Below, one piece after another: positions 1,473 to 27,332 of a stretch of 32,393 nt of DNA. This DNA is from a virus. Location of the stretch: positions 1-32,393 of IMG/VR virus record IMGVR_UViG_3300048029_000178; one strand, 5' to 3'. The translations under genes were made by a program, and so were the position numbers. Below the pieces are notes generated by a model. It had not been told where the DNA came from and ran no database searches. It was given only the letters and a program-made list of their open reading frames with translations. Position 1 is the first letter of the stretch, and every line of letters begins with the position of its first letter.

Positions 1473-1915
1473 TGACAAAGCCAACTGGCAATCCTAGAGG
1501 CAGACCAGCAATTCAAGACGCAGATTATAACGCGGCAAGGGCGCGCAAAATGGAAGCGGATGCCCAGCTTGCAGAACTGGAACTGCTAAAAGCAAAGCGC
1601 GAACTTGTTTCATCAGGCGATGTCTTGTCAGCGTGGGTTGATGTGTTGGGCGCAATGCGCGGCAAGCTGTTATCACTGCCGACAAAAGTTGCGCCGCTGG
1701 TTGCAACAGAAACAGAAATAGGTTTAATTCAACATATTGTAGAACAACAGGTTCGTGAGGCACTAGATGAACTATCAGCTTATCAACCATCAGAACACGC
1801 TGGACGTTCAAACGTCACTGAAAGCGGTGGTGACGGAAGCGATGGCGGTTCTGAAACCGCCAGCAAGGTTAAAAGTAAGCGAGTGGGCAGACCTCGAAAG
1901 GCGTCTCTCATCTGA
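1472..1915 (+). CDS. terS: Terminase small subunit, Nu1-like (147 aa)
   Basis: This is the DNA-recognition subunit of the packaging motor. The pattern RKMEADAQLAELELLKAKRELVS followed by a helix with W, MRGKLLSLP and K is typical of phage Nu1/TerS proteins, which bind near cos/pac and recruit TerL. ATG 1472 is preferred over GTG 1463 because AGGGTGG lies five bases upstream and it overlaps the methyltransferase stop. GRP motifs, the core of AT-hooks, appear near both ends (residues 10-12 and about 139-141). The last 49 codons overlap the start of terL in another frame. This tail is rich in Gly, Ser and Lys, as expected for an overprinted extension. TerS identity rests on the pattern and the position directly before terL. 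Confidence 0.8.
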   Translation: MTKPTGNPRGRPAIQDADYNAARARKMEADAQLAELELLKAKRELVSSGDVLSAWVDVLGAMRGKLLSLPTKVAPLVATETEIGLIQHIVEQQVREALDELSAYQPSEHAGRSNVTESGGDGSDGGSETASKVKSKRVGRPRKASLI

Positions 1916-3632
1916 AAGTAGCGCGGAAGCTGGCAAGTGGCACACCAGTCGAGCGGAATATCAGCGCGGAATTATGGACGCTATTAGCGATCCCAAAATA
2001 AAAGACGTTGTTGTTATGGCTGGCGCGCAAGTCGGCAAAACAGAAATGCTTTTAAACTGCATTGGATTTCACATTGGACACGATCCAGCACCCATTCTTT
2101 TAGTTCAACCCACGTTAGAAATGGCGCAAGCATTCAGCAAGGATAGACTAGCCCCGATGTTGAGAGACACGCCATTGTTACGCGGCAAGGTTAAAGACCC
2201 TAGAAGCCGTGATGCAAATAACACAACAACGCACAAAGTTTTTGCTGGCGGTCATATTAGCCTAGTCGGTAGTAATTCTGCATCAGGTCTTGCCAGCCGA
2301 CCCATCAGAATAGTGCTTTGCGATGAAACAGATAGATATCCCGCGAGTGCTGGTTCAGAGGGCGACCCCATACAACTAGCGCGCAAAAGGTCAGCGACTT
2401 TTTGGAACAGAAAAATCGTGATGGTATCAACGCCAACCAACAAGGGCGCATCCAGAATTGAATCGTCTTTCGAAGAAAGTGACCAGCGGAAATTTTACGT
2501 TCCATGTGAAGATTGTGGACATGAACAGATTTTAAAATGGTCACAAGTTCGCTGGGATAAAGACCAGCCAGAAACAGCGCATTATGTTTGCGAAGATTGC
2601 GGCAGTATTTGGAACGATGCGGCTAGATATAGAGCAGTTAGAAAAGGCAGTTGGCAGTCAACAGAAGAATTTAAAGGCATAGCTGGCTTTCATATTAACG
2701 GCATTTATTCGCCGTGGACGCCCCTTGCTGATGCGGTGCGCGACTTTTTATCAGCAAAAAGAATGCCAGAAACATTGCGCGTATGGACAAACGTATATTT
2801 AGCGGAAAGCTGGGAAGATCAAGGCGAGAGGGTTGACGATTATGCTGTTGCAGAACGCGCTGAAGTTTTCGGCGATAGGCTAGATAGCCGAATCCAGATA
2901 ATAACCGCTGGCATTGATACGCAAGATGACAGGCTAGCCATTGAGGTTGTTGGACATGGACGCGACGAAGAAACGTGGAGTTTAGGTTTTAAAGAACTCT
3001 ACGGCGACCCATCCACGCCGCAACTATGGCAAGATTTAGACAACGAATTAAAAGCTACGTTTATGACAGAAGATAATCGCAAGCTGGATATCAGAGCCGC
3101 TTGCATAGATTCGGGCGGTCACTATACGCAAGCTGTTTATAATTTTGTAAGAAGTCGCGAAGGTCGCCGCATTTTTGCTATAAAAGGGATGGCTGGTGAA
3201 AGCCGCCCGATTGTTTCCAGACCCAGCCGAAACAACATCGGCAAGATAAGGTTGTTCACTTTGGGGGTTGACAACATCAAGGAATTGATTTTTTCGCGAT
3301 TAAAGATTACAATAGAGGGGGCTGGCTATTGTCACTTTCCAGATGATAGACCAGATGAATATTTTAAACAGCTTGCGGCATCAGAGAAGATCGTCACAAA
3401 GTTTCATAAAGGATTTCCACGGCGGGAGTTCGTAAAAACTAGGACTAGAAACGAGGCACTAGACTGCCGCGTTTATGCGATAGGGGCGTTAGCCATTTTG
3501 AATTTGAATTTAAATGCATTGGCTGACCGAAACGACAAGCGTAAAGCTGAACAGTCGGGCGATGAACAACCGTCTGTAAATAGAAAATATCAACAAAGAA
3601 GAAATAGCAATTTTGTTAATGGGTGGCGTTAA
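1767..3632 (+). CDS. terL: Terminase large subunit, GpA family (621 aa)
   Basis: This is the ATP-driven DNA packaging motor and nuclease. The ATPase half has Walker A GAQVGKTE (86-93, Lys91) and Walker B LCDETD (Asp186, Glu187). A four-cysteine zinc ribbon follows (two CEDCG motifs near 246 and 277). The nuclease half has acidic residues in GIDTQDD (Asp384), CIDSGGHY (Asp448) and LDCRVY (Asp566). Start 1767 is chosen because GAGG lies seven bases upstream and because it puts the EWAD motif at residue 39, close to its place in lambda gpA. ATG 1842 would give 596 residues. The chosen start overlaps terS by 149 bases. The stop is coupled to the next gene by TAATG. Confidence 0.95.
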   Translation: MNYQLINHQNTLDVQTSLKAVVTEAMAVLKPPARLKVSEWADLERRLSSESSAEAGKWHTSRAEYQRGIMDAISDPKIKDVVVMAGAQVGKTEMLLNCIGFHIGHDPAPILLVQPTLEMAQAFSKDRLAPMLRDTPLLRGKVKDPRSRDANNTTTHKVFAGGHISLVGSNSASGLASRPIRIVLCDETDRYPASAGSEGDPIQLARKRSATFWNRKIVMVSTPTNKGASRIESSFEESDQRKFYVPCEDCGHEQILKWSQVRWDKDQPETAHYVCEDCGSIWNDAARYRAVRKGSWQSTEEFKGIAGFHINGIYSPWTPLADAVRDFLSAKRMPETLRVWTNVYLAESWEDQGERVDDYAVAERAEVFGDRLDSRIQIITAGIDTQDDRLAIEVVGHGRDEETWSLGFKELYGDPSTPQLWQDLDNELKATFMTEDNRKLDIRAACIDSGGHYTQAVYNFVRSREGRRIFAIKGMAGESRPIVSRPSRNNIGKIRLFTLGVDNIKELIFSRLKITIEGAGYCHFPDDRPDEYFKQLAASEKIVTKFHKGFPRREFVKTRTRNEALDCRVYAIGALAILNLNLNALADRNDKRKAEQSGDEQPSVNRKYQQRRNSNFVNGWR

Positions 3633-4219
3633 TGGTTAATTTGTTTGACAACACTAATGCCCTTAAATTAGAGCCAGACCTAATTGTCGTCGGTGATAGG
3701 TCTGTTTGGCGTAAAACAAATTTAGCTTCAACATATCCATCTGATACTTATTCAGTAACTTATATATCGCGAGTTAGTAGCGGCGGCGGCACACATGAAT
3801 TTAGTGTTTCGGGTGTTGCAGATGGGAATGATTATTTATTTACGATTTTATCGTCTAATTCAGATGTGTATGATGTTGGCAAACACCGCTGGCAATTAGA
3901 AGTAACAAGATCTTCAGATTCAGAGCGAATTATTTTACAAACTGGATTTTGGGATATTATAACTGATCTAGATAATAATATAGACCCGCGTTCTCATGCT
4001 GAAGTAATGCTAGAGAAAATCGAATCAGTTTTGCAAGGACGCGCTGATGCTGACATTGCCAGTTATAGCATTTCAGGGCGGTCTTTGACTAAGATTGCGC
4101 CTAATGAATTAATCGAATGGCGCAATTTTTATCGTGCTGAACTAACGATGGAACGCCGAAAAGATTTAATAAAAAACGGTAAGGCAACATCAGCAACCAT
4201 AAAGTATAGGTTCACATAA
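3632..4219 (+). CDS. gpW-like head-tail connector with extra N-terminal beta domain (195 aa)
   Basis: This sits exactly where lambda has W, between terL and the portal gene. The last 75 residues or so (an AEVMLEKIESVLQG helix, then SISGRSLTKIAPNEL and a basic helix) look like the gpW fold, which plugs the portal and allows tail joining; lambda gpW is only 68 residues. The first 120 residues are beta-rich and begin with a GDRSVWRKT motif like the N-terminal domain of baseplate upper (BppU) type proteins, also seen in the protein at 17248-17595. A fusion of the two is inferred. Start ATG 3632 overlaps the terL stop and is preferred over GTG 3623. Its stop overlaps the portal start (TAATG). Confidence 0.6.
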   Translation: MVNLFDNTNALKLEPDLIVVGDRSVWRKTNLASTYPSDTYSVTYISRVSSGGGTHEFSVSGVADGNDYLFTILSSNSDVYDVGKHRWQLEVTRSSDSERIILQTGFWDIITDLDNNIDPRSHAEVMLEKIESVLQGRADADIASYSISGRSLTKIAPNELIEWRNFYRAELTMERRKDLIKNGKATSATIKYRFT

Positions 4220-5697
4220 TGGGTTTTTTTGATTTTCTAAAAAGACAAGAACCGAAAGTTGCTAGCAAACGCAACTACGCGGCGGCTAGGGGCGGCAGAT
4301 TATTCGGTGATTTTCTGGGGGCAGACAATTCAGCCGATGGCGAGTTAAGATTTAATCTGGAAACATTACGCAATAGGTCGCGTGAATTAGTGCGCGATAA
4401 CGAATTTGCGCGGCGTTATATGACTTTGCTTAAGACAAATGTCGTTGGGGATAGTGGTTTTCATTTGCAAGTCAAAGCGCGCAACGAAGATGGCAAACTG
4501 GATGCCTCTGGTAACACTATAATAGAGAATGCATGGAAACGCTGGGGGCGTTTAGGTTTTCCGACGGTTGACGGTAAGATGTCATGGTACGATTGCCAGC
4601 GATACGCCATTGAATCGCTTGCGCGTGATGGTGAGTGCTTTATTAAGTTAATACAAAATTCGAGATATCGCGACGGATTTGCTATCCAGTTTTTAGAAGC
4701 TGATATGATCGATGAAAAAAAGAACGATGTTTTAGACAATGGCAACCAAATTCGCATGGGCATTGAAATGGACAAAGCCCATAAGCCGATTGCTTATTGG
4801 GTTTTGACAGCGCATCCTAATGACAAATATTATTTGCAACATCAAGAGCGCAAGCATCAGAGAGTGCCAGCATCAGAGATAATTCATCTTTATATGCCGA
4901 ACCGAATGCACCAATCGCGCGGCGAACCGTTTATGGTTTCGGCAATGTCAGCGATGAAAATGTTGGGCGCATATCGTGAAGCTGAAGTTATTGCGGCGCG
5001 TTTAGGCGCAAGCCAGATGGGTATGATTACAACGCCATCTGGTGACGATTACATGGGAGATGGGCTAGAGAACGACTTTACACCAGTCATAAATGTAGAA
5101 CCAGCCGCTATGCATCAGTTACCCGCTGGTTACGATTTTAAAATGTTTAGCCCAGAACATCCAAACACTGGTTATGCAGAATTTGAAAGCGCAATGTTGC
5201 GGGGCATTTCATCGGGGCTTGGCGTATCTTATGCCAGCCTATCTAACGATTTATCTAGCGTGAATTATTCTAGCATTCGTCAGGGCGCGCTTGATGAACG
5301 CGATGGATACCGTGCATTGCATCAATTTATTATTCAGCATTTCTGCGAACCTATTTTTAGACACTGGCTTGAATCAGCTATGGATTTCGGCGGCATACCA
5401 TTGCCAGCGTCAAAGTTTGATAAATTTAGCGATAATTCTAATTTCAGGGGTAGGGGTTGGAATTGGGTTGATCCGCTTAAAGAAATAAATGCGGCAGTTG
5501 TTGGCTTAAATAATGGCATAATGTCGATGCAAGATGTAGCTGGTCATTATGGTCGCGACGTTGAGGAAACATTTAGCGCAATTAATCGCGATAAAGAATT
5601 AGCCGAACAGTTTGGTTTATCAATGGCATTTGAACCATTTGGCACGAAATTGCCTGTTGAAGCCGATATCGCTGGGGGTGATGATGGCGACCTATAA
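4219..5697 (+). CDS. Portal protein, lambda family (492 aa)
   Basis: This forms the dodecameric channel at the head vertex through which DNA enters and leaves. The N-terminus (FLKRQEPK...YAAARGGRLFGDF), the RNRSRELVRDNEFARRYMTLLKTNVVGDSGFHLQ block at about 52-85 and the LGASQMGMIT to SSVNYSSIRQGALDERDGYR segment follow the lambda gpB / Phage_portal_2 pattern closely. The length is typical of the family. It lacks the C-terminal scaffold or protease domain found in some relatives; protease functions are instead in the next gene, whose start overlaps its last 14 bases. The C-terminus is acidic (Gly/Asp-rich). Confidence 0.92.
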   Translation: MGFFDFLKRQEPKVASKRNYAAARGGRLFGDFLGADNSADGELRFNLETLRNRSRELVRDNEFARRYMTLLKTNVVGDSGFHLQVKARNEDGKLDASGNTIIENAWKRWGRLGFPTVDGKMSWYDCQRYAIESLARDGECFIKLIQNSRYRDGFAIQFLEADMIDEKKNDVLDNGNQIRMGIEMDKAHKPIAYWVLTAHPNDKYYLQHQERKHQRVPASEIIHLYMPNRMHQSRGEPFMVSAMSAMKMLGAYREAEVIAARLGASQMGMITTPSGDDYMGDGLENDFTPVINVEPAAMHQLPAGYDFKMFSPEHPNTGYAEFESAMLRGISSGLGVSYASLSNDLSSVNYSSIRQGALDERDGYRALHQFIIQHFCEPIFRHWLESAMDFGGIPLPASKFDKFSDNSNFRGRGWNWVDPLKEINAAVVGLNNGIMSMQDVAGHYGRDVEETFSAINRDKELAEQFGLSMAFEPFGTKLPVEADIAGGDDGDL

Positions 5698-8059
5698 GGG
5701 CGAAGATATAGACTTGAAGCCAACAGAAGCGATGGCAAACGAGGCACAACGCGGGTTAGATTGGCGCAAGGAACATGGTCGCGGCGGGACAGAAGTCGGC
5801 GTTGCTAGGGCTAGACAGTTAGTTAATAGACAAGAATTATCTGCTGATACTGTCAGGCGTATGCATAGCTATTTTAGCCGCCATGAAGTTGACAAACAGG
5901 GCGAAGGGTATAAACCAGATCAAGATGGTTATCCTAGTGCTGGGCGGATTGCGTGGGCGTTATGGGGCGGAAATTCTGGGCAAAGTTGGGCGCGTAGTAA
6001 AGACCGCCAGCTAGATAACATTGACGAAGAACGTGGAATATCAGATAATGTGGAAACAGAAAAGATAGGTGATGAAATGGAAAAGCGGCATATTGTGGAT
6101 GTGCAAGAATTAGAAGATGCTTATGTCATCACTTTTGCAAAGCCACGCCAAGAAGAATTAGAAACATCTGGAAACGATGAAATCGAAACAAGTTCTTATC
6201 ACGAAGAAGAACGGATTAGCCGCGCAGATTTGACTTTGCGCGCTATGGAACTAGAAGAAAAAACAATAGATATGGACAAAAGAACTGTGTCGGTTGGCGT
6301 TTCATCAGAAACACCAGTTGAGCGCAGTTTTGGTCAAGAAGTTATTGACCATAGTCGAGAGAATATGAACCTTGATTTCCTAAATTCAGGTCGTGCGCCA
6401 TTATTAATGAACCACGATATGGAACAGCAAATCGGGGTGGTTGAATCTGTTGAACTTGATGAAAATGCGCGTAGACTGCGCGCTAGGGTTCGCTTTGGAA
6501 AAGGCGAACGTGCTTCTGAAGTGTTCGACGATGTTGCCGATGGCATTCGGCAGAATATCAGCGTTGGTTATCGAATAGATAAACGCGTTGAACGTGAAAA
6601 CGACCCAGAAAATTATTATCGGGTCGCTACTACGCCCATGGAAATAAGCATCGTTGGGATACCCGCAGATCAGTCCAATCAGGTTGGGGTCGGGCGTGCG
6701 CTTTCCGAAACTTTAAAAGCAACCCCTATCGATGAAAGGAATGACAAAATGTCAGAAAATATCGATTTAGAGGCAGTTAAAGCGGAAGCCGCCAAGACTG
6801 CACAGCGCAACGCAAAGGACATTATGACCCTTGCGCGCAAACACAATAAAGCTGATTTAGGTGAAGAAGCACTTGGTCGCGGATTGTCAATAGACGAATT
6901 TCGCGGTGAATTGCTAGAATCAATCGGCAACCAGCCACTAGAAACACCAGCAAGTGTTGTAGACGCACCAGTTAAAGATCAACGCGCTTACAGCCTATCT
7001 AAAATGTTAAGGGCGCAAGTTACGCAAGATTGGTCAGGCGCAAAGCTCGAACAGGAAATGCATCAAGAGATCGTAAAGAACACAGGCAAAGAAGGGCGCG
7101 GAATTTATGTGCCAGATTTTGCATGGGGCGCACGTTCTGGTGTAATGACAACAGCCGCTACTGGTGCAATCTCTGGTGAGAATGTCACAGATAACTTTGT
7201 TCCAACAATTCAGCGTGGCGACTTGTTTATTGAGGCGTTAAGAGCAAGACAAATCATGTCTGGTTTGGGTGTCACATATATGTCAGGTCTAACAAACCGC
7301 GTTAGAATACCAAAGTTTTCTGCTGGTGCGACTGCCGCATTTGTTGAAGAATCTGGCGACGTTTCAGACCAATCACAGACAGATGCCGCTGTAACTTTAC
7401 AGCCTAGAACTTTAGGCGCAAACGCTACAATGTCACGTTTGTTAATGCTTGAATCAGTGCCGTCGATCGAACAAGTTGTTCAAAATGATTTGTTGCGTTC
7501 ATTAGCTGATGCGATTGAATATTATGCAATTCAGGGTTCAGGTTCTTCTGGTCAGCCAACAGGATTGCTAAATACATCAAACGTTGGAAATGTTGACATT
7601 TCTGTTGGAACTGATGTGGCGGCGTTGACTTGGGCAGATATTACTGACCTTGTGAAAACGGTTGAAGATTCTAATGGCATAATCAATCAAAATGCGCTTG
7701 GCTGGTTGTCTAATCCGAAGGTAAAAGCAAAGTTAGCAAACACTGTTAAAGTCGCAACAACTGATTCAATCATGTTGTTAAACGACCCGTGGAATAACAT
7801 TTATGGTTATCGTGCAGAGTTTACAACAAATGTTCCATCTAACCTAGATTCAGGAGATGGCGGAGCAGATGCGTCAGCATTTATTTTTGGTGATTTCTCA
7901 CAATTGATGGTTGGTCTATTTGGCGCGCCATCAATTCTTGTTGACCCTTACACAGCATCCGCATCTGGTGACGTTACTATCAACGTACATCAAGAAGTCG
8001 ATGTTGCTGTCAGAAATGCGGAATCATTCGCAATCACTGATGAAGTTTCAACAGCTTAA
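5684..8059 (+). CDS. Fused prohead protease and HK97-type major capsid protein (791 aa)
   Basis: One uninterrupted frame holds three parts. Residues 12-104 form a domain with RKEHGRGGTEVG, MHSYFSRHEVDK and SAGRIAWALWGG, seen in other phage structural genes but without a name I can give. Residues 195-335 look like an S78 prohead protease: His244 in LMNHD, Ser293 in NISVGY, and MEISIVGIPAD near 318-329. Residues 356-791 look like an HK97-fold capsid protein, with an N-terminal delta-like helical region, then RARQIMSGLG and the QGSGSSGQPTGLL motif. Start 5684 follows GGGGGTG at a normal distance; ATG 5681 is equivalent. A strong internal ribosome site before ATG 6749 could make the 436-residue capsid subunit separately. 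No separate protease, scaffold or decoration gene is seen. Confidence 0.88.
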   Translation: MATYKGEDIDLKPTEAMANEAQRGLDWRKEHGRGGTEVGVARARQLVNRQELSADTVRRMHSYFSRHEVDKQGEGYKPDQDGYPSAGRIAWALWGGNSGQSWARSKDRQLDNIDEERGISDNVETEKIGDEMEKRHIVDVQELEDAYVITFAKPRQEELETSGNDEIETSSYHEEERISRADLTLRAMELEEKTIDMDKRTVSVGVSSETPVERSFGQEVIDHSRENMNLDFLNSGRAPLLMNHDMEQQIGVVESVELDENARRLRARVRFGKGERASEVFDDVADGIRQNISVGYRIDKRVERENDPENYYRVATTPMEISIVGIPADQSNQVGVGRALSETLKATPIDERNDKMSENIDLEAVKAEAAKTAQRNAKDIMTLARKHNKADLGEEALGRGLSIDEFRGELLESIGNQPLETPASVVDAPVKDQRAYSLSKMLRAQVTQDWSGAKLEQEMHQEIVKNTGKEGRGIYVPDFAWGARSGVMTTAATGAISGENVTDNFVPTIQRGDLFIEALRARQIMSGLGVTYMSGLTNRVRIPKFSAGATAAFVEESGDVSDQSQTDAAVTLQPRTLGANATMSRLLMLESVPSIEQVVQNDLLRSLADAIEYYAIQGSGSSGQPTGLLNTSNVGNVDISVGTDVAALTWADITDLVKTVEDSNGIINQNALGWLSNPKVKAKLANTVKVATTDSIMLLNDPWNNIYGYRAEFTTNVPSNLDSGDGGADASAFIFGDFSQLMVGLFGAPSILVDPYTASASGDVTINVHQEVDVAVRNAESFAITDEVSTA
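6735..6751 (+). promoter_or_regulatory. Internal ribosome binding site and start codon for free major capsid protein
   Basis: AAAGGA at 6735-6740 lies eight bases before an in-frame ATG (6749) inside the protease-capsid fusion. Initiation here gives a 436-residue protein beginning MSENIDLEAVKAEAAK, a normal length and start for an HK97-fold capsid subunit. The site lies at the domain boundary, about 20 residues past the end of the protease core. Together these suggest two products from one gene, the fusion in low copy and the capsid subunit in high copy. Expression itself cannot be seen in sequence. Confidence 0.6.
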
Positions 8060-9457: not shown

Positions 9458-9805
9458 ATGAGTTTAGCCAAGACGATAAAAAGCCGTCTGGATGCAAAGC
9501 CAAGGCGCGTTATTGAAGTCCCTGAATGGGGTGAAGATGGCGCGCCATTGCTTTTATATGTTTCTGATATAACGGCTGGTGATATCCACAAATTACAGCG
9601 CAAGCACAAAGATTTTTTAAATAATCAAACTATGGATGCGATGGTTGATTTAATTATTCAAAAAGCTGAATTAAAGGATGGCAATAAAGCGTTTTCTTTA
9701 GAAGATAAGCCTGTTCTGATGAGTTTTAATTTATCTGAAATAGCAAGCGTCGCTGGTAATATGTTTGGCGATATTGATAGCATTGAAGAAATTGAAAAAA
9801 ACTAA
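9458..9805 (+). CDS. Tail assembly chaperone, gpG-like (115 aa)
   Basis: This is the 0-frame product, 115 residues, in the G position between the tail tube and the tape measure. Such chaperones bind the tape measure protein and bring tube subunits to it; they are not in the mature virion. It has a basic N-terminus, a WGEDGAPLLLYVSDITAGD segment as in phage tail chaperones, and an acidic end. The last codons before the stop form a canonical -1 frameshift site (9796-9802), which gives the longer product listed separately. Confidence 0.75.
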   Translation: MSLAKTIKSRLDAKPRRVIEVPEWGEDGAPLLLYVSDITAGDIHKLQRKHKDFLNNQTMDAMVDLIIQKAELKDGNKAFSLEDKPVLMSFNLSEIASVAGNMFGDIDSIEEIEKN

Positions 9806-9951
9806 AAGACTATCCGTTTAGAATGAATGTTCTGGCACTTGCGGATAGGTTACATAAGACCCAGCCAGAAATTGAAGAATTAACGCTATCAGAACTGAAT
9901 GAATGGTTCGCATATTTCAAGGTTGTAGAAGATGGCAGACCAAAAACTTAA
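9458..9951 (+). CDS. Frameshifted tail chaperone, gpGT-like (about 164 aa)
   Basis: If ribosomes slip one base back on A AAA AAC at 9796-9802, translation avoids the TAA at 9803 and continues in the -1 frame to TAA 9949-9951. This adds 49 residues beginning LKDYPFRMNVLALADRL and ending with the acidic-aromatic motif NEWFAYFKVVEDG. The added part resembles the T part of other G/GT chaperones (a helical region with P-E-x-x-x-L and E-x-x-x-W-x-A-Y). It overlaps the tape measure start at 9932. The ratio of products cannot be judged from sequence. Confidence 0.75.
9796..9802 (+). promoter_or_regulatory. -1 programmed frameshift slippery heptamer
   Basis: The heptamer A AAA AAC stands in the right reading frame (codons GAA-AAA-AAC), directly before the TAA stop of the chaperone gene. 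It is a canonical X XXY YYZ slippery site, the class used by many tailed phages between G and GT type genes. No strong downstream pseudoknot was recognised by eye. Confidence 0.75.
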
Positions 9952-20812: not shown

Positions 20813-22984
20813 ATGGCTATTTATTGGATTGACCCTTATTTAGAGGCGACAACACAAGGCAATGGGACAACAACGACCAGCAATCAAGATGGATCTTATT
20901 CTGCCCCTTGGTCATGGGTTGAAGCTGATGTTATGCAAAATAATAACAATCCTACAAACATCACATCAATTGATGGGAACACACTTAACGACGATGATGA
21001 GATTAGAATAAAAGGCTTGCCATTTAACACTTTATTTGAAGATCTTGGAGAAGTTTATTTTACAAGCACCAGTTATAATAATGGGAATATAAAGCCAACT
21101 AGCTCTAATACAACTATGGCGACTAATTTTGACACAACAAGCAAAATTTTTGCTTATGATTCAACATTTAGTGGTTATTTTATGCCCGACGCCGCTGGAA
21201 CTCAAAACATTTTTTTTACTACTTTTAATGGCACAAACACTGCCGCATCACTAGCAACGCCGTGGCAAGGCACACATGAGCGTTTTTATTTTCAGTGCGG
21301 GTTTGATAGCTCATCTGGCGGCACTGCTACTGGGGGATATAACTATCCAACTTTGAAACAACTAAAATCTGAATATTTGAATAATATTGCATTTAATACT
21401 ACTGGGACAGGAGAGTACAACTATTTTTTGAACATATTACAAACAAGAATAAAAATAAGTTCTGGATGGACTAGCGAAACTACTAGAGGTGGTTTAAGCA
21501 TACTTAAATGGAGCAATAGCGGTTATTTTTATAGAAACAATAATTTTTTTGGGGCAAGTTTTCCCAGTGATTCTGGTGTAAATACTGAACTTCATATAGA
21601 TTGCCCAGAATTACTGTTATTTACTGAAGATTTTGGATATACCAGAGTTGGTGTAAATTGTCATACTAACTCAACAGCAACAGCGACAGCATCTGTTGGC
21701 GGTCATTTTGGTTATGGTTATTTTTGCCATTGGGGTTTGGGATATTTTAATGACAATATAAATAAAAGTTATATTGTTCATCAGGTGCAAGCTAGATACA
21801 ATAACTTTTATTATGGGAATTATCAAAATTCACAAGGTGGGGCAACCAAATGCACAGCTACTGTATATTTCTCTCAAACAAATGACTTTAGTAGGCACTA
21901 TAACAATCGAGTTTCTGGAATTAATCTTCAAATTGGGACTGTGTTAGGGTTTCAACAAGACACTGACCCTAATGCATTAGGGTTTTTTAGAATGATGTAT
22001 GCGGCTGGCGGTTCAAGCGGTTGGTTAAACAATTTTGAATCAATAACTTGCTTGCCATCTAGTTGCTATACTGTGAGTTATTGGAATAATTATTATAGTA
22101 CAGCCAATCAGAGTTTAGCCCCATATACACACGCCGAAGGCATTCATCTTGAAATACCAGTTACAGTTCCGCAAGCCCCAGACACTGTTTATAGGGCGGA
22201 GGTTGCTGGCTCACCATTACAAAACCATACTTCAATGGCTTATGCTGGCGGACATCCACCAAGAAAAGGTTCGCCGTTGGGAACGACATCCGCAATAGCA
22301 AGTTTTACCGCACCTTTATCTGGGAATAGATGGTTTGATCCAGCGTTAGACATTCCTAGAACGCACTTATTAAACAACATCAGTTGTGGTGTTTTGAAAT
22401 GTGGCGGGAATGATTATAGAACATCTACTATAGACCTTGCAACGATTAATGGATATGGGACTAGCAACAACCTTTATGTTTTTGAATCAAATGATTATGA
22501 TGACAAACCAATTATAATATTGCCGCCATATCAATACAACACCCCAGCTTTGTTATATAACGATACTATAAGTTCTGTTGATTGCTTGGTTATTAAACAT
22601 CCTAGAGTTAGCAATGGTAATGCATTTTTTGGATTTCCATTTGTTTTAAATTTTCCTGATGATTATGATGGGACTGGTCAATTGAGAGTGACAGTTGCGT
22701 GTGCAAAAAACAGCACCGCAATTAATAGCCCTCAAACATTGCGAATTTATTGGAGAGATGGTGGGGCAGATTCTGGTCATGAAGATTACGCTCAAGGCGG
22801 GACTATAAACAGCACTGATATCACTAGCCCCGCTAACGTTTCTACAGATTTCACACCAGCATCAGGGACAGACACTTCACCGTTTCCAACTTCTGCTTTT
22901 TGTATGTTTGAAGCTAGATTTCCAACTAGCACAACAGCAGACTTAAAAATATACATTACAAATATATCAATAGAGACTATATAA
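20813..22984 (+). CDS. Large unrecognised surface protein, likely tail spike/adhesin (723 aa)
   Basis: This 723-residue protein is rich in Asn, Thr, Ser, Gly and Tyr and low in charged residues, which is typical of beta-helix or beta-sandwich phage surface proteins. It begins MAIYWIDPYLEATTQGNG, a start I associate with marine phage appendage proteins, and has no signal peptide. The last 180 residues or so (after RTHLLNNISCGVLKCGGN) look like a separate beta sandwich ending in LKIYITNISIETI. No lyase, sialidase or peptidase motif is seen. It lies between the fibre gene and the lysis cassette, so a receptor-binding or polysaccharide-binding role is the likely one. Its end is coupled to the next gene by TAATG. 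Confidence 0.6.
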   Translation: MAIYWIDPYLEATTQGNGTTTTSNQDGSYSAPWSWVEADVMQNNNNPTNITSIDGNTLNDDDEIRIKGLPFNTLFEDLGEVYFTSTSYNNGNIKPTSSNTTMATNFDTTSKIFAYDSTFSGYFMPDAAGTQNIFFTTFNGTNTAASLATPWQGTHERFYFQCGFDSSSGGTATGGYNYPTLKQLKSEYLNNIAFNTTGTGEYNYFLNILQTRIKISSGWTSETTRGGLSILKWSNSGYFYRNNNFFGASFPSDSGVNTELHIDCPELLLFTEDFGYTRVGVNCHTNSTATATASVGGHFGYGYFCHWGLGYFNDNINKSYIVHQVQARYNNFYYGNYQNSQGGATKCTATVYFSQTNDFSRHYNNRVSGINLQIGTVLGFQQDTDPNALGFFRMMYAAGGSSGWLNNFESITCLPSSCYTVSYWNNYYSTANQSLAPYTHAEGIHLEIPVTVPQAPDTVYRAEVAGSPLQNHTSMAYAGGHPPRKGSPLGTTSAIASFTAPLSGNRWFDPALDIPRTHLLNNISCGVLKCGGNDYRTSTIDLATINGYGTSNNLYVFESNDYDDKPIIILPPYQYNTPALLYNDTISSVDCLVIKHPRVSNGNAFFGFPFVLNFPDDYDGTGQLRVTVACAKNSTAINSPQTLRIYWRDGGADSGHEDYAQGGTINSTDITSPANVSTDFTPASGTDTSPFPTSAFCMFEARFPTSTTADLKIYITNISIETI

Positions 22985-25654: not shown

Positions 25655-25877
25655 CATCGAGTTTTTTTACCGCTGGTTCAATTGCTGGCTGGGTGTCTTT
25701 TGGCTGAACTGATACGCTGAAATAATCGCCAGTTTTTGGACTATTAGCATTCCAGATAGAAAGCCAATAATCCTTACCATCGACATTCAGATTGCCGCGA
25801 AAATCTGGCTGGGTGTCTTTTTCTTTACGATTGTTTAGAAACGCCGCCCCGCGATTAGTGTTATCATATTGTGACAT
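25638..25877 (-). CDS. Small ssDNA-binding-like protein with SSB-type C-terminal tip (79 aa)
   Basis: The sequence SQYDNTNRGAAFLNNRKEKDTQPDFRGNLNVDGKDYWLSIW is related in pattern to phage proteins annotated as DUF736-like or OB-fold-like. The last residues LDDEIPF match the acidic DDDIPF tip by which bacterial SSB proteins recruit repair partners. An SSB-like or SSB-mimic role next to the annealing protein and exonuclease is therefore inferred. At 79 residues it is much shorter than E. coli SSB (about 178), so either the fold is minimal or only the tail is used. It overlaps the ERF gene by 14 bases. Confidence 0.6.
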   Translation of the reverse strand: MSQYDNTNRGAAFLNNRKEKDTQPDFRGNLNVDGKDYWLSIWNANSPKTGDYFSVSVQPKDTQPAIEPAVKKLDDEIPF

Positions 25878-26487
25878 TGTTTAACCCTTTCACTTTTTCT
25901 TTTTTCATTTTAAATAATTCAATTTGGTCATCTGTTGGTTTAATGTTTTTGCTGGAAAACAGCCGTTTATAAACATCGTTTATTTCCTGTTCATTAGCAC
26001 AAGCAATCAACGCATCTGCTAATGTTTTATCAGTAATTTTAGGTGCGGGCGATGAGGTAGGGAGGACAACCCCATCACCCGCTTTTTGCCTATCGCCGCT
26101 AGAAGGAGAGACAGCGCGACCAGCAAAACTTGTCGCAGAATTAGCATCATCATCGTCAGCATTTAATCCAAACATAGTCATCAAACTAGCGCGACGCAAA
26201 TAAGTGACGCAAGACATGAATGCTTGCGGGGTGTCTTTTTCTGGCTTGATGATTATTCTACTGGAAAATAATTCGCCACTTTCCAGATGCATTACATCAG
26301 TTATCAGCGCGTCATTGTCGAAATATTGGTCAAATGTTAATCCGTATTCGTGAACGCCAGCTAACGCGTTTAAAACGTCGCCCAGCGTGGTATATTCCGA
26401 TCTAAACATCGGGTTGCGTCCTGATTTGCCCACCGATGCTTCTGCGCGGAATTTTGATAAAGACCGCATTAATTCTACATTTCCCAT
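25864..26487 (-). CDS. erf: ERF-family single-strand annealing protein (207 aa)
   Basis: The sequence contains the ERF core: KSGRNPMFRSEYTTLGDVLNALAGVHEYGLTFDQ at about 21-54, LESGELFSSRI, then MSCVTYLRRASLMTMFGLNADDDDAN at about 90-115. ERF proteins coat single strands and anneal complementary strands in recombination and in making circles or concatemers from linear ends. The C-terminal half (about 116-207) is Ser/Pro-rich, then helical and basic, typical of a partner-binding region. It overlaps the exonuclease upstream by 13 bases, giving the usual exonuclease-annealase pair. Confidence 0.88.
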   Translation of the reverse strand: MGNVELMRSLSKFRAEASVGKSGRNPMFRSEYTTLGDVLNALAGVHEYGLTFDQYFDNDALITDVMHLESGELFSSRIIIKPEKDTPQAFMSCVTYLRRASLMTMFGLNADDDDANSATSFAGRAVSPSSGDRQKAGDGVVLPTSSPAPKITDKTLADALIACANEQEINDVYKRLFSSKNIKPTDDQIELFKMKKEKVKGLNNVTI

Positions 26488-27332
26488 AATTCTTTAGCCC
26501 TTTTTAAATATTCTGGTTGTAATTTCCATTGATAATTGTGACCCCAATCGGGATCGGTGATAGATGCTAAAAACTTAACATCATCGCTTAAACATACTAA
26601 ATTTTGCCGCAGTAAGGCGCGCTGACGCGCTTCATCGAGATAATGCAACATGGCGTCGTGTTTAAGTTCATCGCAGTTGAACGGCGTATAAAGAACCGCA
26701 TCATCCGCTGATATATAACAAATCGACGGCGTAGTTTTCAGCGCGTGATAATAAATGCTGGTCTGGATTAAATGGGCATGGTCTGGCTTTTTGGGCAAGG
26801 TAGCTTTTGCCCAGCCCTGTTCGCCCGATTTCAGCACTTTAGTTTTCCGCGCCGCTTTAGTTTTCATTTCACAAAACATGGTATCTGGAACGACCAAATC
26901 AACATAGCCAATAACATCAATATGAATATCAGGGATGCGAGTTAAAATCTTTTCTTCAGGCAAACCGCCTATAAAACCATCTTCAGCTAATATTTGGACA
27001 CCGTTATTTATTGCGTTAGGCAAGTCGTCTTTATATTTTGCCAGCATTACATCATCAGGTTCTGGGACGTTTTGAAACGCTAGATTAATCTGTTGTTGTT
27101 TAATTTCGTCAGCTATATCTGCACCATTAGATATTATATTTTGGATTCCAGTATGCGTAGCTGTTCCGAAATGGGCATTATATCCGACCATCAATTCTTG
27201 GCGTTCTTCACTGGTTAAAAAACCATACTTAAATAGCCAACTACTAACAGATGACGTTAATCTGCTAGGGCTAATATAGGGCTGGTTGAAGCGTTTCCAT
27301 GCCGATTCTATTTGTTCTATTGTTAATTCCAT
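26475..27332 (-). CDS. RecB-like PD-(D/E)XK exonuclease (285 aa)
   Basis: This nuclease has the RecB/Cas4-like layout: an early GTATH (56-60), then GYVDLVV with Asp145, FCEMKTK with Glu155 and Lys157, and QTSIYYHAL with Gln190 and Tyr194. These form the PD-(D/E)XK core with the QxxxY motif. It would resect DNA ends to give the single strands used by the ERF protein. ATG 27332 is preceded on the minus strand by AAGG at a good distance, and it is the first gene of the operon, next to the divergent control region. It was not matched to lambda Exo; a YqaJ-like or RecB-like group is likely. Confidence 0.8.
   Translation of the reverse strand: MELTIEQIESAWKRFNQPYISPSRLTSSVSSWLFKYGFLTSEERQELMVGYNAHFGTATHTGIQNIISNGADIADEIKQQQINLAFQNVPEPDDVMLAKYKDDLPNAINNGVQILAEDGFIGGLPEEKILTRIPDIHIDVIGYVDLVVPDTMFCEMKTKAARKTKVLKSGEQGWAKATLPKKPDHAHLIQTSIYYHALKTTPSICYISADDAVLYTPFNCDELKHDAMLHYLDEARQRALLRQNLVCLSDDVKFLASITDPDWGHNYQWKLQPEYLKRAKELWEM

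Follow-up and report, generated by a model that had tools for sequence, protein, structure and literature searches.

A protease-capsid fusion gene with a conserved internal start that may encode a nested set of phage head proteins in one reading frame

The usual account of how the right number of proteases gets into a phage shell is that separate proteins come together as the head assembles, and the locus described here raises the question of how that number could be set when protease and capsid are written as one gene. It lies in IMG/VR virus record IMGVR_UViG_3300048029_000178, all 32,393 bases of which were analysed (the window), and joins an N-terminal module, an S78-type prohead protease, a delta domain and an HK97-fold major capsid protein. 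Our analysis makes it very likely that this single frame specifies a nested set of head proteins, in which a full-length fusion and internally started plain subunits would co-assemble and the protease would release itself. The joining of protease to capsid is already known and is not new, but the conserved internal start of the capsid part and the nested modular build appear, as far as we have searched, to be undescribed. The parts of the gene that carry this argument are as follows.

5684 to 8059, plus strand: fusion open reading frame (ORF), N-terminal module, S78 prohead protease, delta domain and HK97-fold major capsid protein, 791 amino acids
6266 to 6703, plus strand: S78 (HK97-type) prohead protease domain, residues 195-340 (PF04586, invariant columns, AlphaFold2)
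6735 to 6740, plus strand: Shine-Dalgarno sequence AAAGGA, 8 nucleotides before the internal ATG, duplex energy -5.6 kcal/mol, family-wide
6749 to 6751, plus strand: internal start codon ATG, Met356, of a predicted free capsid subunit of 436 amino acids, conserved in relatives
6749 to 7135, plus strand: delta (scaffold) domain, alpha-helical, residues 356-484 (AlphaFold2), resembling the HK97 scaffold domain in position and size
7136 to 7219, plus strand: disordered segment, residues 485-512, predicted maturation-cleavage zone and capsid N-arm (from AlphaFold2 and the R4C alignment)
7220 to 8056, plus strand: HK97-fold major capsid domain, residues 513-791 (PF05065; best fold match 8gta_A, the R4C capsid)

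The frame from 5684 to 8059 runs without interruption over 791 codons (a purely mechanical ORF extends further upstream, to 5612). Peptidase_S78 (Pfam PF04586) matches residues 236-336 at 36.4 bits (cutoff 21) and Phage_capsid (PF05065) residues 513-784 at 108.5 bits (cutoff 24.2), with TIGR01554 also above its cutoff at 78.4 bits; these capsid scores, together with the fold match, identify an HK97-fold major capsid protein. The protease scores under the cutoff of NCBIfam TIGR01543 (48.3 vs 59); its triad, H244 (6413), S293 (6560) and E320 (6641), is intact and invariant among relatives, and the Pfam score above the gathering cutoff combined with the conserved His, Ser and acidic residues assigns it to the S78 prohead proteases, its activity being predicted. 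The frame and domains thus hold as proposed in a preliminary description made from the letters alone, which had read the locus as an N-terminal domain, an S78 protease and an HK97 capsid in one uninterrupted frame.

The protein belongs to PHROG 617 ('major head protein') across both protease and capsid (residues 186-788, E=1.9e-106), whereas NCBIfam NF045541 ('prohead protease/major capsid protein fusion protein') matches residues 195-429 only, at 139.4 bits against a cutoff of 525, and the window protein is a relative of NF045541, not a member. NF045541, PHROG 617 and PHROG 4523 all describe the same joined domains, and internal starts are absent from the model names. A protein search of phage records gave 17 with matches over 80% or more of the query, among the best of them Roseobacter CRP phages and Synechococcus phages S-CBS1 and S-CBS3; many further records match the protease and capsid only (ep3, VP882, phiHAP-1, RcRhea, FoX phages, R4C). 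CRP-831, -821, -823, -406 and -811 and S-CBS1 and S-CBS3 have the same fusion including the N-terminal module of the window (module A), at 32-64% identity over 98-100% of the protein, some with extra modules, and are annotated merely as major capsid or head protein. The fusion is therefore present in marine phages, where the preliminary description had thought it worth seeking (CRP phages, S-CBS1/S-CBS3 and R4C among them), and its cultured carriers comprise R4C, S-CBS1/3, VP882, ep3 and CRP-831; in Rhodobacter phage RcKai, one deposited gene is labelled 'major capsid and protease fusion protein'. Among the relatives gathered (from viral contigs, 35 close and 80 more distant; from bacterial and archaeal genome contigs, a further 35 loci), the frame stays open for at least 250 residues past the protease-end motif in 144 of the 145 loci where that motif was recognised. 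Because the linker after the protease differs in length and composition among relatives while the frame remains open, selection must be keeping the frame.

The evidence that this frame is also entered from within comes from the site at 6749. The AAAGGA and the ATG stand exactly where the preliminary description had placed them, to the base, and the product from this ATG has the 436 residues stated there. Met356 is invariant in close relatives despite variable surroundings, with a Shine-Dalgarno core upstream in each, and the codon register of that core differs from one relative to another: GAT GAA AGG AAT GAC AAA ATG in the window, ACA GGA GAA ATC AAA ATG in relative L008, GTA AAG GAG AAA CCT ATG in L012 and AAG GAG GAT GTT ACT ATG in L018. 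The Shine-Dalgarno sequence is thus retained while its register, the encoded residues and the linker length change. In a test set of 78 nonredundant representatives at 85% identity, all fused in frame, an in-frame ATG occurs 6-35 codons past the protease-end motif in every one. Measured as duplex energy with the 16S tail, and counted as present at -4 kcal/mol or below, the Shine-Dalgarno signal at this ATG averages -7.15 kcal/mol and is present in 91%, compared with -2.21 kcal/mol and 17% at 1371 other in-frame ATGs (p=5e-39); at the starts of the genes that follow, which served as a positive control, it is weaker than at the internal site (-4.55 kcal/mol, 54%). Only positions from about -18 to -6 nucleotides carry the signal. 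To allow for the many Glu, Lys and Arg residues of the linker, we compared it with synonymous-codon shuffles that kept each protein, and 0 of 200 reached the observed mean energy, either in all 78 representatives or in the 24 clusters at 50% identity, the 24 genome or prophage members and the 9 cultured phages. A conserved Shine-Dalgarno sequence and in-frame start therefore coincide with an inner domain boundary, and the separate capsid genes of the more distant relatives L157 and L158 have a delta-like segment of this type at their N-terminal end. These comparisons indicate that a ribosome-binding site at 6735-6751 is under nucleotide-level selection, presumably for separate synthesis of the capsid subunit, and we conclude that a free capsid subunit is probably made from the internal start.

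Structure prediction is in agreement with this boundary. AlphaFold2, run on a 54-sequence alignment (mean predicted local distance difference test score 77.7; predicted template modelling score 0.46, so that the arrangement of domains relative to one another is unreliable), gave module A at 1-119, a disordered linker at Met132, the protease at 195-340, a disordered linker at 342-360, delta helices at 362-484, a disordered segment at 485-512 and the HK97 fold at 513-791. Met356 falls inside the disordered linker that separates the folded protease from the delta helices, which places the ATG at the domain boundary as first suggested. Among solved structures, the roseophage R4C capsid (PDB 8gta) is closest both in sequence and in fold, and HK97 structures also match. 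The 8gta chain consists of residues 362-629 of the 629-residue R4C fusion ORF (vBDshSR4C_006), in a shell shown by cryo-electron microscopy to hold 415 capsid copies (PMC10276861). Because the mature chain comprises these residues only, protease and delta domain are removed in R4C, which supports the earlier proposal that the protease is cut from the capsid. The predicted helices at 362-484 and the absence of the corresponding part from the mature R4C chain together point to an HK97-type delta domain. In HK97 itself, the capsid N-terminus bears a 103-residue scaffold domain that projects inward (PMC10275583), and by analogy anything fused upstream of the capsid would lie inside the prohead.

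Based on these findings, initiation at 5684 would give the full-length protein, with module A, protease, delta domain and capsid, and initiation at 6749 an ordinary HK97-like pre-capsid subunit of 436 residues with delta domain and capsid alone, whereas a further start at 6077, described below, would probably give protease, delta domain and capsid without module A. Most likely, the one frame would yield a small number of subunits that are full-length or bear the protease and a larger number of plain ones, and these would co-assemble through their common delta and capsid domains, so that a controlled number of proteases and copies of module A would be enclosed in the prohead, since the capsid N-terminus points inward. 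During maturation, the protease would cleave near residues 485-512, releasing itself, the delta domains and the modules, so that the shell would retain only the ~300 C-terminal residues. The preliminary description had envisaged few protease-tagged subunits among many plain ones; the two kinds of product find strong support in the conservation of start and ribosome-binding site in 78 (85%) and 24 (50%) representatives, while 'few' and 'many' we infer. It had also assigned the scaffolding role to the protease-tagged part, which probably does not hold, in that the scaffold is most likely, by analogy with HK97, the delta domain within the 436-residue product.

What lies upstream of the protease bears on what else such a gene could bring into the head, and two further features are needed here.

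5684 to 6040, plus strand: module A, compact helical domain, phrog_2859, residues 1-119 (PHROG, structure model)
6067 to 6079, plus strand: candidate second internal start, AGGTGA at 6067-6072 and ATG at 6077 (Met132), in a disordered linker, residues 120-135 (model)

Both the candidate start and the exchangeable nature of the N-terminal module were overlooked in the preliminary description, which had suggested structure prediction for residues 1-355; the prediction recovers a protease at 195-340, whereas residues 1 to ~119 belong to phrog_2859 and not to the protease. A single protease spanning residues 1-355 was rejected, module A being separate and mobile. Elsewhere, in tailed haloviruses and in phages that infect marine bacteria and cyanobacteria, module A occurs joined to portal, prohead protease, XkdF-type and minor head proteins. 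It is modelled as a confident helical domain, for which a PDB fold search returned no solved relative and in which no catalytic signature was found. In relatives, DUF5824, a TUDOR-like domain and an unnamed module, PYPNEH, also occur in the N-terminal region, variously combined, and roughly half of the representatives lack these three and module A alike; the window, L001 and L028 are more than 90% identical elsewhere, yet the first two differ from L028 by a whole module. The comparison of sequences thus identifies the N-terminal region as an exchangeable, head-associated module. The Met before the protease module is conserved. Of 28 relatives, 82% have a Shine-Dalgarno sequence at it (mean -6.08 kcal/mol), whereas the share at other in-frame ATGs is 17% (p=2e-13) and the synonymous shuffles give a null of -4.43 +/- 0.47 kcal/mol; the position of this Met coincides with the normal gene start of relatives without N-terminal modules. 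In L025 and L026, an extra segment at about residues 230-330, upstream of the protease (HALRFSTTPDGTHNDGEEYT...NHPGMG) and unlike modules A-D, is inserted in the head fusion. In CRP-823 (L038), near position 3690-3720 of the locus, one extra homopolymer T relative to CRP-831 splits the N-terminal modules from the protease-capsid part, which either is an error of sequencing or shows, by natural example, that the modules need no covalent link.

Several observations weigh against two nested products. The Shine-Dalgarno sequence at the internal site is weak in 7 of the 78 relatives (e.g. L164, L041, L073) and moderate in the window itself (-5.6 kcal/mol), the synonymous null is fairly rich in such sequences, the linker being made of Glu, Lys and Arg codons to a large extent, and the 28 relatives with the second start collapse to three lineages at 50% identity, which makes that start weaker evidence than the one at 6749; we found no data from proteomics, ribosome profiling or mutants in the fusion family. 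One could therefore suppose that all capsid is made as the full-length fusion and every chain is cut, the internal Shine-Dalgarno sequence and ATG being a relic of two ancestral genes. Protease and capsid are indeed always in one frame, and the mature R4C shell is equally compatible with cutting of a single precursor, but a relic would decay, whereas the Shine-Dalgarno sequence is held beyond protein constraint in 24 clusters that share less than 50% identity, although its codon register shifts, and it is stronger than at neighbouring genes; moreover, a 1:1 ratio of protease to capsid would presumably load 415 proteases and N-terminal modules into each prohead. We consider this explanation improbable. 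The converse, that the internal start alone makes working capsid and the readthrough fusion is a functionless consequence of a lost stop codon, draws on the fact that the 436-residue product is by itself laid out as a complete HK97-type pre-capsid protein. It appears more improbable still, given that an unselected frame would gain stops and frameshifts and this one is open in all but one of the loci despite its variable linker, and that the head module of the window has no other head protease gene that we could find. As for a sequencing or assembly artefact, its only hint is the single homopolymer T that separates CRP-823 from CRP-831; the fusion recurs in independently sequenced cultured phages and in prophages, and the hidden stop codon that the preliminary description had considered is contradicted by the relatives that read on in frame. 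We rejected sequencing error on these grounds and give an artefact practically no credence.

A further explanation, compatible with nested head proteins, takes the N-terminal module as packaged cargo: held in the prohead through its fusion to the protease, it would be cut free as the head matures and might be ejected along with the DNA. The internal proteins of T4 and the polyvalent proteins of phages are parallels for proteins that are packaged and ejected. The shuffling of module A, DUF5824, the TUDOR-like domain and PYPNEH at one site, their lack in about half of the relatives, the whole-module difference between near-identical phages and the joining of module A to portal and minor head proteins would all fit such a role, as would the effectors fused to head proteins that have been described (PMC5512222). 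On the other hand, module A shows neither a catalytic signature nor a known fold and might rather serve in assembly or DNA packaging. Both roles are possible for module A, and cargo is an appreciable possibility that nevertheless falls short of being probable. Slightly less likely, and offered tentatively, is the fuller proposal that three nested starts (5684, 6077 and 6749) yield three head proteins with a common capsid C-terminus, the outermost bringing exchangeable modules into the prohead and the fused protease freeing them, as a single-gene, capsid-anchored system of cargo loading and maturation.

The nested arrangement favoured here can be set beside several known systems. R4C, a Dinoroseobacter phage, has the same protease-delta-capsid fusion family and gene order as the window but lacks module A, and the R4C papers mention neither a protease nor an internal start. 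HK97 has the S78 protease (gp4), delta domain and HK97 fold (gp5) in the same order, but as two separate genes, whereas the window has one frame with an internal ribosome-binding site. In lambda, where C-Nu3-D-E occupies the place of the window fusion, and in Mu-like phages, an in-frame internal start in the head-protease gene yields the C-terminal product separately, as proposed here (for Mu-like protease-scaffold genes, see PMC4378225); there the inner product is the scaffold, while in the window it would be the capsid, and the lambda protease is ClpP-like and that of the window S78. No ClpP-like domain was matched in the window protein by Pfam, NCBIfam or PHROG at the thresholds used. Phages MD8, F10 and Fels-1 combine a ClpP-like protease, scaffold and capsid in one gene, according to the passages of PMC8508860 that we consulted, which do not discuss an internal start; their protease family is unrelated to that of the window. 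In F10 (L165), gp5 has an in-frame ATG preceded by a Shine-Dalgarno sequence at codon 220, near the end of the ClpP-like region, in 14 of 14 relatives by simple count. These relatives are closely similar, and other conserved Met codons, 146 and 185, score like codon 220, so we did not use it as independent proof; it is a hint of possible convergence in an unrelated protease-capsid fusion. Our search of the open-access literature turned up these MD8-type fusions and Mu-like internal starts, and no description of an S78 fusion with an internal start.

If nested starts are in use, the dose of protease in the head would depend on how often each of two starts in one gene is used, which could be tested by altering one ribosome-binding site. 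Annotation would also be affected, as databases give only the full-length 'major capsid protein', whereas a product of roughly half the size is probably the abundant one. From a broader point of view, the exchangeable N-terminal modules suggest a general route for carrying proteins into phage heads.

The gene stands in a head module, directly behind the portal gene.

4219 to 5697, plus strand: lambda-family portal protein (context; PF05136, TIGR01539)

The 3' end of the portal gene (stop at 5697) and the start of the fusion share 14 nucleotides, and the order of the module is small and large terminase, head-tail joining, portal, fusion, a small ORF, head closure, tail terminator and tail tube. 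A PHROGs scan of the 30 window ORFs found no separate head protease or scaffold gene, as the preliminary description had also noticed. The large terminase (gpA type, 1767-3632) shows a match to a TFIIS-like zinc ribbon (residues 246-282) where the ATPase and nuclease domains meet, and a DNA methyltransferase-like gene (927-1472) lies directly 5' of the small terminase gene. The tail assembly chaperone ORF at 9458-9932 terminates GAAAAAAAC TAA, and the -1 frame runs on for ~50 residues, which makes it a typical candidate for programmed -1 frameshifting. Past the tail fibre genes, a 723-residue ORF (20813-22984) has no PHROG match. On the minus strand at 25864-27332, opposite to the structural genes, an Erf-like annealing protein is encoded beside a 'CRISPR/Cas system associated' PHROG gene.

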